From: Alphaproteobacteria bacterium
GTDB lineage: Bacteria; Pseudomonadota; Alphaproteobacteria; RF32; CAG-239
Assembly (NCBI GenBank): GCA_017961285.1
Contig: JAGCXO010000026.1
Span: forward strand, 1-35,231
DNA: 35,231 bases
Reading direction: 5' to 3'
The translations under genes were made by a program, and so were the position numbers. The notes under the pieces are model-generated. The model saw only the letters and a program-made list of their open reading frames with translations. It had not been told where the DNA came from and searched no databases. Below are positions 27,639 through 32,934 of the stretch, in pieces; positions within the stretch are counted from its first letter, which is position 1; each line of letters begins with the position of its first letter.

Positions 27639-29351
27639 TTAAAAGTAGCGCACAATCTTTTTATATGGCTTTAGACCAAGTTCACGATGAACTTTGGCAA
27701 TATGTTGCGAGTGTCTGCCCCATTTGGTATATTTATCAATGAATTCTTTGGCTTTTTGCGGAGATTTGGAAAGCTGAACCTCTATTGTGTCGGCCAATAA
27801 TTTATTAAACACTATCGGTAAGCGATCAAAATCTATGCTCAAAAGGCCTTGGGCATTGAAGGATACTGCCTTGTTCTCTAGGAGATAATTAAACTGTATC
27901 AGATCGGCCATACGGTGCGGCAACATATCGTGCGGGCGAGCACGCAAAAACATTCCGCCGACAATGCAACTGACATATATCTTTTTGAGTGTTTCGCGGC
28001 TTATGATGCCTTTTTTGACATATTCGGGCATAAAAGTTAAGGAAATGGTATCAGCTTTGTGCTCTTCTATGATATGTTTATATTTGCCTAATGCTCCTTG
28101 ATATTGGCTATCCGGCCCAAGGGAATGTCCGTTTTCGTGTCCGATAACAAATATGTGTATAGCCTCGGAATCGTAATATTTATGCAAATCTTTAGAAACA
28201 AGTCTTTGCAATATTTTCTTTTCTTTTTCTTTGTCTTTTCCCATACGCACCTGTCGGTGATATACATTGCGACGCCCGCCTCCGGTTTTGACCGACAATT
28301 TGTCGTTATTTGGCAGATTTTGGGCAGTGGTAATGCCTCCGCGGCATTGTGCATAATCGCCTTCTAAGTCGACAAGATCAACATCTACCATGGTTTGTTT
28401 TATTTCTTCACCATCCAATATATGTTGATGGTATTTGTCTTTATAGGGCATTAAATTCGCCAATTCCTTTATATGTTGCTTGAACTTCAAGATAAGTTCG
28501 GTTCCTTCTTTGTTGACAATTCCCACGCGAGCACCAAGCATATCTTTGGCAACAGGCTCAATATTATGCTTTTCAAGAAGTGAAGAAAGTTTTTTATTAT
28601 TGAAAACAGTTGATGTGATTTCATCATCATAATTTTCGCGACTGATGGTAAACTCCAAATTGTTGTCTTGCAAAACTGCCCAATGTTTGTCGGCAAGCAT
28701 ATCCATATCAGGATTATTTTGCAAAAATGCCTGCGCCTGCCAACCGAGATAGTCCTTGAATTCTTCTTCGTCGCAATAATGAGCGGCTACTTCAAGCTCA
28801 TTAGCAATTAAGGAAAACTCATTGCGAAAATATTCGATATAATCTATTGCTTTCAACTCTTTACCGTTACGTCTTACCATGGTGCGGGCGCTTAATATCT
28901 GGCGAACTTCTTCGATTTTTCCGACCTGCAACATATTGATAAGAATTTGATGAAATTCTTCAACACTCAAGTCTTGCGGATAAAAATTGTGACCTTTCAA
29001 GAGATGGATATCCTCAAAAATCTCTATCGGTTTGGAATCAACACCGTTAAAACCGGCTACTCCGTTGAGAGAATTGAACATCTCTAAAGCTAATTTTGCT
29101 TGTTTGTTTGAAGAAGCTGCTTTTTGCAAAGCCTTTTTCATATCCAAATTATACGGATTGTCCTGCTCCAATGACACATCATTGATGATTTTGGCGGCGG
29201 CGACAAGATGTTCCAAAGCCTTCTTATTGCCGGCGGACAAATTTTTATATCCCGCAAAGTTTTTATCTATAAGTTTAATTTCAACGCTTTTTGAAAGCAT
29301 ATCCTGCAGTTTTTCTGCGGTATAATTGATTTTATGTCCGTTAATTTGCAT
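27639..29351 (-). CDS. Zinc metallopeptidase of the dipeptidyl-peptidase III (M49)-like type
   Basis: The protein has 570 residues and no signal peptide. The zinc site is HENGH at 405-409 in FVIGHENGHSLGP, with a downstream acidic ligand in EEHKADTISL (about 429-437), the equivalent of EECRAE/EELKAD in M49 relatives. The C-terminal part (GGMFLRARPHDMLPHRMADLIQFNYLLENKAV...) follows the pattern of bacterial DPP III-like proteins (R...R.G...AH..A...NYL...GA). Classic M49 enzymes have HELLGH (one residue longer); the shorter H-E-x-G-H form appears here. DPP III removes dipeptides from peptide N-termini; the substrate here is unknown. The first 300 residues are helical and poorly conserved to my eye. 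Its start lies inside the last codons of the MEMO-AMMECR1 gene (11-bp overlap), so the two are translationally coupled. Confidence 0.75.
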   Translation of the reverse strand: MQINGHKINYTAEKLQDMLSKSVEIKLIDKNFAGYKNLSAGNKKALEHLVAAAKIINDVSLEQDNPYNLDMKKALQKAASSNKQAKLALEMFNSLNGVAGFNGVDSKPIEIFEDIHLLKGHNFYPQDLSVEEFHQILINMLQVGKIEEVRQILSARTMVRRNGKELKAIDYIEYFRNEFSLIANELEVAAHYCDEEEFKDYLGWQAQAFLQNNPDMDMLADKHWAVLQDNNLEFTISRENYDDEITSTVFNNKKLSSLLEKHNIEPVAKDMLGARVGIVNKEGTELILKFKQHIKELANLMPYKDKYHQHILDGEEIKQTMVDVDLVDLEGDYAQCRGGITTAQNLPNNDKLSVKTGGGRRNVYHRQVRMGKDKEKEKKILQRLVSKDLHKYYDSEAIHIFVIGHENGHSLGPDSQYQGALGKYKHIIEEHKADTISLTFMPEYVKKGIISRETLKKIYVSCIVGGMFLRARPHDMLPHRMADLIQFNYLLENKAVSFNAQGLLSIDFDRLPIVFNKLLADTIEVQLSKSPQKAKEFIDKYTKWGRHSQHIAKVHRELGLKPYKKIVRYF

Positions 29352-30900
29352 TTTCTTTTATCTCCACAGTATAGAAACGATAAACTTGAATATCATTAGA
29401 CCAGAAACTAGGGCTCATTCCGGCTTTTAGTTTCAAATTGTCCAAAAATGCTTTTTTATCCGGAAGTTGCACCCATACAGATGGCAGAAACAGACCTTGA
29501 CGACTGCCGTCACGGATAATTACACCATCAACGTTGGGAACAAGTTGATTTAATAAATCCTGCTCATCGGTATATCTGATTTTTTCAAAGCCGGTTAATA
29601 ATGATATGGAAATTGCAATATCCGGCAATTCTTCAGCCGTAAGCGGTGAGAATCGCGTATCATTCAGGGCAGCGGCACGGGCATTATCAACAACGTCAGC
29701 AACAACAGCTTTGCGAGGATATAGAGAACCGATGCAACCTCTGAGTTCGTTTTGTTTGGTCAAAGTTACAAAAGAAGCTCCGCGGTCAAACAAATGGTCA
29801 TCATAACTGCCGCGGTCAGGATGGTAGTTTTTGCCTTTAACAGATTGTTCTAGTGATTTATGTGCGGCTGCTATCAACGGCTGTCCATATTCGGATGCAA
29901 ATTTCAACAGCCCTTCTCTTTCTCTTGCGATTTTGGTGATTTTCAGGCCTTTTTGACTGAAGCTCCAAGCTCCGTATCCGACAACGCGACTTTTATCATT
30001 GCTAACATCGCCAGAATTTATCAGTGCCAAAACTTCGGGTTTGTAATTGAAAGCTTTGGCAAGTTTCAATGCTGTATTTATACCTCCGGCACCGCAAGAG
30101 TGGTGATAATCTATATCATCTTGCCCCTCTTCTACCTTGAGAGCGGTCTCGGTATCCATCTGTACTGCCTCATTATAAGGATGATAGTGTGATAAATCGG
30201 CAGAAACAACAAGCAAAGTATCATCTTTTTGCAGATATGGCTGCAAAGCATCCGCCATTTCCTGAGGATTCATATTTCCATAAACGATAGGCACTATTTT
30301 GAGATTGGGAATAAGTTTTTGTAAAAATGGTAGTTGAACCTCTAGAGAATGTTCTTTTTCATGGGCTTTGTCATTGACTTTTATCATATTGTTTTTTAGC
30401 AAGGCACTTGCTATCTCGGTGTTCACTTCAACAACTCCCAAAGGTGTTTTGAAATATTGGGCTTTGGGTAAGGCGGCTCCTTCCAATGCCTCATAGTGAG
30501 ACGGCCCAAGTAAAATGACATTTTTTATGTTTGAGGCAAAATCTTTCAAAGGAAGATAGGCTTGTGCCGCGGCAACGGCTGAAAATTGGTATCCGGCATG
30601 GGGAACAACAATGATTTTTGGTTGAGACAGATGTTGCTGATAGTTAAGCGACAAAAGTTCATCCATGGCTTGGTTTAGAACTGTGCTGTCAACAGGATAA
30701 AAATATCCGGCAACTGCGGGATTGCGATATTTTTCCATTGGATCTCCTTTGCTGGTATAGTGTGAAGCCAGTGAATGATTTGATGAAACTTGGTGGCGGA
30801 AATAAATTACGTTAACAACGGCTAGAACCACAACAATTAACGATATAATTATGTATCTGCGGATTTTGCTGCTGTTTTCATCTTGAGATTTTTGTTTCAT
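29341..30900 (-). CDS. Membrane-anchored MEMO-AMMECR1 fusion protein (AmmeMemoRadiSam components B and A)
   Basis: The protein has 519 residues. Residues 15-33 are a transmembrane helix preceded by KIRR, which predicts the rest lies outside the cytoplasm. Residues about 58-318 form the MEMO domain: AGYFYP, PHAGY (H101), GPSHYE (H135), VSADLSHYHPY and HHSCGAGG (C259), matching the metal-site and dioxygenase-fold residues of MEMO. Residues about 328-515 are AMMECR1: RGASFVTL, LRGCIGSLYP (C389), DTRFSPLTAEEL and the GVIIRDG..QGLFLPSVW block. The AmmeMemoRadiSam set of AMMECR1, MEMO and a radical SAM protein is conserved in many bacteria and archaea. The radical SAM partner is not in this window. 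AAGGA precedes the ATG; HAD upstream (12 bases) and the M49-like gene downstream (overlap) share the transcript. Confidence 0.88.
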   Translation of the reverse strand: MKQKSQDENSSKIRRYIIISLIVVVLAVVNVIYFRHQVSSNHSLASHYTSKGDPMEKYRNPAVAGYFYPVDSTVLNQAMDELLSLNYQQHLSQPKIIVVPHAGYQFSAVAAAQAYLPLKDFASNIKNVILLGPSHYEALEGAALPKAQYFKTPLGVVEVNTEIASALLKNNMIKVNDKAHEKEHSLEVQLPFLQKLIPNLKIVPIVYGNMNPQEMADALQPYLQKDDTLLVVSADLSHYHPYNEAVQMDTETALKVEEGQDDIDYHHSCGAGGINTALKLAKAFNYKPEVLALINSGDVSNDKSRVVGYGAWSFSQKGLKITKIAREREGLLKFASEYGQPLIAAAHKSLEQSVKGKNYHPDRGSYDDHLFDRGASFVTLTKQNELRGCIGSLYPRKAVVADVVDNARAAALNDTRFSPLTAEELPDIAISISLLTGFEKIRYTDEQDLLNQLVPNVDGVIIRDGSRQGLFLPSVWVQLPDKKAFLDNLKLKAGMSPSFWSNDIQVYRFYTVEIKENAN

Positions 30901-30912
30901 ATCTTTTCCTTT

Positions 30913-31572
30913 TTAGTCTATGGATTCCAAAAGAGAATAATAATCCTTGAAGAAAATTATATTTTTACAATTTGTATTGTCATTAAGATTTTTATCATTA
31001 TTAACACGGATCGGTAATGCATTTACTGCAGAAGCACACAAATTATCCAGTTGGCTATCGCCTATTATCCAAACAGTTTCGGGCGAAATATCCGCAAAAT
31101 CAATCAAATCTTTCAAGGTATAAAGGGCTTGGTCACCATAGGGTTTGTCTTTGGGAGCTTCGTGTCCGCAGACGATTTTATCGAACATATCTGCAGAATA
31201 CAGCATCGGCAACTCATATTCCAAAAGGTGTCTGTCCTTATTGGTCATTATCGCGATTTTTATTCCTTTAGCGCGGAAAAAGTTTATAACTTTGTCGGCA
31301 TTATTGAAGCCTTGGAAATTATTTTTCACATATTGCTTATAATATCGGCAGAATTTTGTGTATGCCGAATGAGATTTTTGCCCGAATATGTTGGGAAAAT
31401 TGTCAAGAAAAGAAAGCATTTCATCACGCAGATTTTTGACCTCGTCCCAGCATGGCATTTCATATTCTTTTAGGACTCGGTTTATGGCCTGCACTCTCGG
31501 GATGTCACTTTGGGCTAAAGTGCCGTCCCAATCAAAAATCACCACTTTCAGTTTTTTGCTGCTTAATTTCAT
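30913..31572 (-). CDS. HAD-superfamily phosphatase (phosphoglycolate phosphatase-like)
   Basis: The protein has 219 residues. Motif I is FDWDGTLAQSD (nucleophile D14, D16), motif II is MTNKDR, motif III is the lysine of APKDKPYGDQAL and motif IV is IIGDSQLDNLCASA, all present. A helical cap lies between residues 20 and 95, the layout of Gph/PGP-like type I HADs. It probably hydrolyses a small phosphoester such as phosphoglycolate; the substrate is not determinable. GGAG lies about 9 bases before the ATG. It follows serS by 81 bases and precedes the MEMO-AMMECR1 gene by 12 bases. Confidence 0.88.
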   Translation of the reverse strand: MKLSSKKLKVVIFDWDGTLAQSDIPRVQAINRVLKEYEMPCWDEVKNLRDEMLSFLDNFPNIFGQKSHSAYTKFCRYYKQYVKNNFQGFNNADKVINFFRAKGIKIAIMTNKDRHLLEYELPMLYSADMFDKIVCGHEAPKDKPYGDQALYTLKDLIDFADISPETVWIIGDSQLDNLCASAVNALPIRVNNDKNLNDNTNCKNIIFFKDYYSLLESID

Positions 31573-31653: not shown

Positions 31654-32934
31654 CTATTTTTGAGAACCTTTAATAAAGGTCTTTCCCATCATATAAGGCT
31701 GGAGTTTTTCCGGTATGCGGATTGAGCTATCGGCTTGCTGGTGATTTTCCAAAAACGGAACCAATGCGCGAGGAGTTGCAATACCGGTATTGTTCAGAGT
31801 GTGAACAAAACGGACTTTTCCTTCGGCATTATCACGATAGCGTAAATTGGTGCGGCGAGCCTGCCAATCAGTGATATTGGAACAGCTATGTGTTTCACGA
31901 TAGCAGTTTTGGCTCGGGACCCAAGCTTCCAAATCATATTGACGATATTTCGGGGCACCCATGTCGCCGGTGCAAACTTCCAAAACCTGATACGGCAATT
32001 CAAAATCCTGCAAAATCTCTTCGGAAATCTGCAACAATTTTTGGTGCCATTTTTCGCTTTCGTTAACGTCATTTTTGCAGATAACAAACTGCTCGGTTTT
32101 CATAAATTGGTGAACTCTGGTCAGACCTCTGGTATCTTTGCCGGCGGCTCCTGCCTCACGACGAAAACACGGAGAAAAACCGGCATAGAGAATCGGTAAA
32201 TCATTTTCGGTCAAAAGCTCGTCAGCGCGCAATGAATTCAAGATAAGCTCGGCTGTGCCGGAAAGATAAATATCATCTTGCGGCATATAATAGATTTCAT
32301 CTTTAGCAAAAGGCAGATAACCCTGACCGTATAAGGGTTTTTCTTTGGATAATGACGGAACGGTGATAACTCTGAATCCGTTGGCGGCAAGCTTATCCAT
32401 AACGTATAAATGCATAGCAAGCTCCAAGCGAGCTAACTCGTTGGTGATGGCATAACTGCGGGAACCGCAAACTTTTGCAATTCGCTCGCACTCGGTCCAG
32501 CCGTTTATTTCCATCAATTCGACATGGTCTTTGGGCTCAAAATCAAAGTGCGGGATATCACCAACCTTGCGAACAACAACATTCTCGGTATCATCAACAC
32601 CGACAGGACTTTGCGGAGACGGAAGATTGGGCAAGCGCCACATAATGTCGTCAAATTTTGCCTGCTCTTCAGCAAGTTTTTCTTGTTCAACCTTTAATTG
32701 TTCGCCAAGTTCGCGACTTTTGGCGATTATGTTCGGACGTTCTTCCGGACTGGCGGATTTTATGGAATTGCTCAAACGATTTTTTTCTTCAGCCAAAGCT
32801 TGGGAAGAAGTTTTGAGCTGATTTACTCTTTTGTGGAGAGCTAACAACCCGTCAACATCAATATTAAAATTTTTCTTGGCAAAACCTTCTTTTACCAACT
32901 GTGTGTTCTCGGCAATAAACTTAATATCCAACAT
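31654..32934 (-). CDS. serS: Seryl-tRNA synthetase
   Basis: This class II synthetase of 426 residues charges tRNA-Ser (and tRNA-Sec if present). Residues 1-105 are the two-helix coiled-coil arm that reads the long variable arm of tRNA-Ser. Core motifs are the motif 2 block FRREAGAAGKDTRGLTRVHQF with the catalytic arginine, TGDMGAPKYRQYDLEAWVPSQ, and the C-terminal motif 3 NNTGIATPRALVPFLENHQ. Length and order are typical of bacterial SerRS. A promoter with an embedded palindrome lies at 32966-32994. It heads a series with the HAD, MEMO-AMMECR1 and M49-like genes; no strong terminator separates it from the HAD gene. Confidence 0.98.
   Translation of the reverse strand: MLDIKFIAENTQLVKEGFAKKNFNIDVDGLLALHKRVNQLKTSSQALAEEKNRLSNSIKSASPEERPNIIAKSRELGEQLKVEQEKLAEEQAKFDDIMWRLPNLPSPQSPVGVDDTENVVVRKVGDIPHFDFEPKDHVELMEINGWTECERIAKVCGSRSYAITNELARLELAMHLYVMDKLAANGFRVITVPSLSKEKPLYGQGYLPFAKDEIYYMPQDDIYLSGTAELILNSLRADELLTENDLPILYAGFSPCFRREAGAAGKDTRGLTRVHQFMKTEQFVICKNDVNESEKWHQKLLQISEEILQDFELPYQVLEVCTGDMGAPKYRQYDLEAWVPSQNCYRETHSCSNITDWQARRTNLRYRDNAEGKVRFVHTLNNTGIATPRALVPFLENHQQADSSIRIPEKLQPYMMGKTFIKGSQK

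Follow-up and report, generated by a model that had tools for sequence, protein, structure and literature searches.

MEMO and AMMECR1 are widely conserved domains; humans have both, with links to disease, and we know of no established chemistry for either. Contig JAGCXO010000026.1 of an alphaproteobacterial genome assembly (GCA_017961285.1; the whole stretch of 35,231 nucleotides analysed here is hereafter the window) encodes the two domains fused behind a hydrophobic N-terminal helix, which raises the question of what such a pair of domains does at a membrane, and on which side of it. We consider that the product is an inner-membrane protein with one N-terminal helix, whose MEMO and AMMECR1 domains form a catalytic unit in the periplasm without a radical S-adenosylmethionine (SAM) partner, and we assign this reading a probability of about 0.55.

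The open reading frame (ORF) starts with ATG, and both domains lie well over the curated NCBIfam cut-offs: TIGR04336 for MEMO (E = 5e-73, 246 bits versus a cut-off of 26) and TIGR04335 for AMMECR1 (E = 5e-55, 185 bits versus 99). Pfam gives the same two domains (Memo, PF01875, 1e-51; AMMECR1, PF01871, 8e-45). The boundaries proposed by an earlier sequence-only reading of this DNA (helix 15‒33, MEMO 58‒318, AMMECR1 328‒515) were right within a few residues of those in Table 1, and the motifs it described as intact, PHAGY, GPSHYE, HHSCGAGG and LRGCIGS, were all found, the last satisfying the AMMECR1 family motif LRGC(I/V)G. In an AlphaFold2 model built with 58 sequences (mean predicted local distance difference test score 89), both folds are confident and follow a single helix (residues 7‒37) and a linker at low confidence (residues 52‒66). 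The MEMO domain of the model matches human MEMO1 with a Z score of 31.9 over 248 residues, and the AMMECR1 domain matches the archaeal AMMECR1 protein PH0010 (PDB 1vaj) with 22.9 over 186 residues. The metal pocket of human MEMO1 is formed by His49, His81, Asp189, His192 and Cys244 (PMC9477392), and alignment of the shared motifs gives H101, H135, D235, H238 and C269 as the putative ligands of the window protein, all five being present. While fold and ligand set are the same as in human MEMO1 (PDB 7kq8, iron-bound; 7l5c, copper-bound), the latter is a single soluble domain, whereas the window protein is anchored and fused to AMMECR1; PH0010 shares the AMMECR1 fold but stands alone, and its solved chain has no predicted anchor.

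The anchor is real, family-wide and under purifying selection. The helix, about 20 residues long and the only one per protein, as in a single-pass membrane protein, is preceded by the N-terminal tail MKQKSQDENSSKIRR. The window's family consists of relatives of Azospirillum sp. CAG:239, alphaproteobacterial metagenome-assembled genomes (MAGs) from gut and rumen, in which the anchored gene occupies one syntenic locus throughout. The helix, noted earlier in a single protein, recurs in all 53 family proteins examined, and Asn30 within it and Asn41 just after it are kept even in the degenerate members whose active sites are lost (11/11 long and 6/6 short proteins). Over the first ~55 codons, the nonsynonymous substitution rate (dN) is well below the synonymous rate (dS) in nearly all close pairs, degenerate lineages included, as in L072/L073 (0.075 versus 0.79) and L115/L118 (0.016 versus 0.31); the least constrained pair in these codons is L070/L071 (0.41 versus 1.19). 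The conserved residues and the low dN rule out a misassigned start codon as the source of the helix. Searched with a profile of the anchored protein, 134 of the 152 family genomes gave a match, as did 103 of the 109 good ones, although a few of the 134 matches are a soluble LigB-AMMECR1 fusion instead, such as the sole match in genus g14. The cytosolic homologues of other alphaproteobacteria have no helix and begin at the MEMO domain. Two records titled Lactobacillaceae or Lactobacillus (L137, L161) hold the alphaproteobacterial MEMO-AMMECR1 locus, which suggests that the MAGs bear the wrong names.

The side of the membrane was assessed from the residues flanking the helix. When Lys, Arg and the N-terminal amine are counted in the 15 residues on either side, the window protein has six on the N-side versus one on the C-side, and 45 of the 53 family proteins likewise have more on the N-side, whereas seven have equal numbers and one has fewer, with the strongest bias in the window's own genus. 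By the positive-inside rule, which is a rough guide, these counts place the MEMO and AMMECR1 domains probably on the periplasmic side of the inner membrane. The outward orientation proposed by the sequence-only reading thus gains from the charge bias and from the single N-terminal helix, but several observations weigh against it. The net-charge difference over 15 residues favors an inward N-terminus in only 28 of the 53 proteins, with eight equal and 17 opposed, and the flanking charges are weak or balanced in part of the family (e.g., L017, L021‒L025 and L071). The product of the overlapping, conserved M49 peptidase gene carries no evident signal peptide and is probably cytosolic. Furthermore, the tree and the joint-loss data described below bear on anchoring and catalysis and are silent on the membrane side.

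The helix might instead run with its N-terminus outside and its C-terminus inside, or lie on the membrane, which would leave MEMO and AMMECR1 on the cytoplasmic face of the inner membrane, perhaps with the cytosolic M49 peptidase, the product of the overlapping gene, alongside them. The 11-bp overlap with the M49 gene in most loci, the M49 catalytic motif, intact throughout, and the members with weak or balanced flanking charges agree with this arrangement. However, the overlap of the genes indicates joint expression and says nothing about a shared compartment, the Lys/Arg bias points the other way in most of the family and above all in the window's genus, and relatives elsewhere bear apparent signal peptides, i.e., are apparently exported. 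We consider a cytoplasmic orientation unlikely, if still worth keeping in view beside the periplasmic one.

A start codon downstream of the helix, which the sequence-only reading regarded as fatal to its proposal, does exist: an internal ATG (M55) follows the Shine–Dalgarno-like sequence AAAGGAG at a spacing of 4 nt. Since a similar GGAG-ATG arrangement recurs in most of the window's genus, a second, soluble product from M55 is possible there, which is a further point against a purely anchored protein. One gene would then serve both sides of the membrane, with a membrane form from the ATG at 30900 and a soluble form from the ATG at 30738. However, the arrangement does not extend across the family: 34 of 78 family genes, about half, have no start codon at the M55 position, and the family-wide constraint falls on the anchored form. 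The spacing to the ATG is also short, and AGGAG-like strings are common where codons are acidic. We regard a two-product gene as rather improbable and retain the anchored protein as the form that the family conserves.

The evidence for catalysis comes from the way in which the two active sites disappear. The complete genes have either both the MEMO ligand set and the cysteine of the AMMECR1 LRGC motif or neither, with no discordant case; the intact set was enriched by the search pattern, but an unselected sample shows the same both-or-none pattern without exception. The joint loss occurred in at least six lineages, with at least six changes forced by the starred branches of a tree built from the neighboring genes M49 and SerS. 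Independent pairs agree in five to six of six comparisons, and the single disagreement, L151, was scored degenerate only since a contig end cuts its gene at residue 150; its remaining MEMO sites are intact, so it is not discordant. Of the AMMECR1 residues, 39 do not vary across 57 intact proteins; 19 of these persist in each of the 11 long degenerate proteins, and C389 alone is retained in none of the 11. H238 of MEMO is likewise kept in none. The anchor and the AMMECR1 core remain in the degenerate lineages. These copies are not paralogs or transferred genes, since they occupy the same serS-HAD-MEMO-M49 locus throughout. The first protein tree grouped most degenerate proteins, probably through fast evolution, whereas the neighboring-gene tree separates them.

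Neither the MEMO ligands nor the LRGC cysteine is ever lost without the other, which suggests that MEMO and AMMECR1 catalyze one reaction as one unit, without a radical SAM enzyme. The anchored scaffold probably serves an additional purpose that persists after catalysis is gone. A non-catalytic membrane scaffold throughout the family, with motifs that are intact in the window protein only as leftovers, would account for the retention of the protein in at least six lineages that have neither active site. It is very unlikely, however, given that 57 intact sequences diverged up to about 55% all have the five ligands and C389, and that both domains of the intact pairs show a dN far below dS.

The catalytic unit would work without the usual third component. 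AmmeMemoRadiSam is defined by TIGR04335 (A), TIGR04336 (B) and a radical SAM enzyme (TIGR04337), and a search for the last gave no match in the window's genome (G000, 92% complete). Across the family, TIGR04337 scores over its cut-off in 13 of the 152 genomes, all of genus g3, so the partner is missing from nearly the whole family. In several g3 genomes, the radical SAM gene adjoins a soluble LigB-AMMECR1 gene on the same contig, and neither active site survives in the anchored protein examined from g3 (L098). In outgroup alphaproteobacteria, the radical SAM gene still adjoins the MEMO gene, and A and B are fused or split in these cousins. The window protein resembles that system in its fused A and B parts with intact motifs, but it lacks the radical SAM enzyme, carries an N-terminal membrane anchor and is encoded in an operon with an M49 peptidase instead. 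The sequence-only reading had called it a branch of AmmeMemoRadiSam; since the definition calls for three parts and only two are present, the window protein does not belong to a working system of this kind. The soluble LigB-AMMECR1 fusion, in which a LigB-type dioxygenase replaces MEMO, was found in genera g3 and g14 (L089, L090, L092, L094 and L096).

Anchored or apparently exported MEMO-AMMECR1 fusions are not confined to the window's family. Inspected by eye, fusions from Desulfosarcina, Omnitrophota, Elusimicrobia, TM6 and several other Pseudomonadota-group genomes seem to carry a signal peptide; a lipobox is present in one such relative, and the copy in an archaeal MAG has a TM (transmembrane) anchor. 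The premise that MEMO and AMMECR1 proteins are normally soluble and cytoplasmic thus appears not to hold in several phyla. The window's gene sits inside the alphaproteobacterial branch of the family tree, and a single clade uniting it with the exported branch of Desulfosarcina, Omnitrophota and Elusimicrobia was rejected (approximately unbiased test, p-AU = 0.010). Since the exported branch is separate from the window's family, there was more than one origin of anchoring or export. A tree joining the window's family to L079, a signal-peptide copy of another alphaproteobacterial family, was not rejected (p-AU = 0.62) and had a log-likelihood 6.3 better than a free quick search; L079 and the window's family may be sisters.

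The exported fusions share with the window protein the fused A and B parts, but most of their genomes keep the radical SAM enzyme, in some cases with a twin-arginine translocation (Tat)-like signal. In Desulfosarcina and the archaeal MAG, the adjoining radical SAM enzyme has an SRRxF Tat-like N-terminus, an intact CxxxCxxC motif and a full TIGR04337 score; a Pfam Tat-signal match agrees but is weak. The sequence-only reading had held that a radical SAM partner must stay cytoplasmic or be absent. It is absent from the window's genome, but some enzymes elsewhere carry Tat-like signals. In a separate case, the radical SAM gene of L187 (G223) contains 20 in-frame TGA codons, which suggests that TGA is read as an amino acid. 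Other genes adjoin the exported fusions: a membrane protein of 700‒760 amino acids (aa) with a spermidine synthase domain in Desulfosarcina and Omnitrophota (L164:7376-9490, L167:4976-7267), and a NapH/MauN-like gene after the fusion in Elusimicrobia (L171:7398-8549, tested; L173:7401-8552, by similarity), whose product, a membrane ferredoxin, could carry electrons to the outside. We found no literature on membrane-bound or exported MEMO or AMMECR1 proteins or on Tat-exported radical SAM enzymes; Burroughs et al. 2019, who described Memo-AMMECR1 contexts according to PMC7159879, which cites them, may have recorded part of these features.

The coordinates of the features are collected in Table 1. 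The conserved gene order is serS, HAD phosphatase, MEMO-AMMECR1, M49, in many loci a gene that we take to be L-serine dehydratase-like (recognized by its sequence rather than by a profile search), and the small membrane protein, for which profile searches gave no family match. The M49 gene neighbors MEMO-AMMECR1 at 81 of 87 loci and overlaps it in all 76 measured. Its product, with the five-residue HENGH motif, was not recognized by Pfam or NCBIfam, but matches 6eom_A, a dipeptidyl peptidase III-type structure from Caldithrix (E = 9e-29), and its motifs are intact, with HEN[GA]H in 77 of 77 sequences and EExKA[DN] likewise. In L130 (Azospirillum sp. CAG:239), the M49 gene is in two ORFs of 262 and 313 aa, owing to a frameshift or a sequencing error.

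Table 1 Features of the MEMO-AMMECR1 locus in the window and radical SAM genes at loci elsewhere.
Feature	Position	Strand	Basis or remark
MEMO-AMMECR1 fusion with TM anchor, 519 aa, coding sequence including stop	29341..30900	(-)	ORF list, profiles, model
Hydrophobic TM helix, residues 16‒34, KIRR on N-side	30799..30855	(-)	Kyte-Doolittle mean 2.79
Asn30, inside TM helix, invariant	30811..30813	(-)	family alignment
Asn41, SSN motif directly after helix, near-invariant, lost only in L099	30778..30780	(-)	family alignment
Shine–Dalgarno-like AAAGGAG ahead of M55 ATG	30744..30750	(-)	sequence inspection
Internal ATG (M55), possible second start	30736..30738	(-)	sequence inspection, family comparison
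MEMO domain, residues 59‒313 (TIGR04336)	29962..30726	(-)	profile and fold match
AMMECR1 domain, residues 342‒511 (TIGR04335)	29368..29877	(-)	profile and fold match
Cys389 of LRGCIG	29734..29736	(-)	missing wherever MEMO ligands are missing
M49 (dipeptidyl peptidase III-like) metallopeptidase, 570 aa, HENGH...EEHKAD	27639..29351	(-)	downstream, 11-bp overlap
Conserved small membrane protein, 123 aa	27179..27550	(-)	present at 68 loci
HAD-family phosphatase, upstream neighbor	30913..31572	(-)	conserved at 61 loci
serS, conserved upstream neighbor	31654..32934	(-)	locus comparison
Radical SAM enzymes with Tat-like N-terminus (SRRQFILATA, SRREFIKKAA) and intact CxxxCxxC, adjoining exported MEMO-AMMECR1	L159:9531-10736, L162:9399-10664, L164:9477-10646, L165:9624-10808, L170:9462-10568, L156:1048-2241

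These observations are consistent with the following scheme for the anchored periplasmic protein. Its ancestor would be an alphaproteobacterial cytosolic fusion working with a radical SAM enzyme, and the window's family would have gained the anchor and lost the partner. By analogy with human MEMO1, a redox metal is predicted in the MEMO pocket, and C389 of AMMECR1 may join the same reaction, acting on an envelope substrate. Asn30 and Asn41 probably serve as contacts to a membrane partner or within a dimer, in which case the anchor would be more than a tether, and this scaffold role would be retained where catalysis is lost.

A wider generalization, in which MEMO-AMMECR1 is also an extracytoplasmic enzyme with one two-domain active site, working here without radical SAM and in other phyla with a Tat-exported radical SAM enzyme, is tentative, and we hold it to be doubtful at present. 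It would be surprising to find a Tat-targeted radical SAM enzyme at work outside the cytoplasm, where to our knowledge neither SAM nor low-potential electrons are expected. For the window's family, the natural lack of the radical SAM enzyme offers a reduced system in which to seek the shared reaction of MEMO and AMMECR1, and if the domains face outward, their substrate must be a component of the envelope, which would narrow the search.

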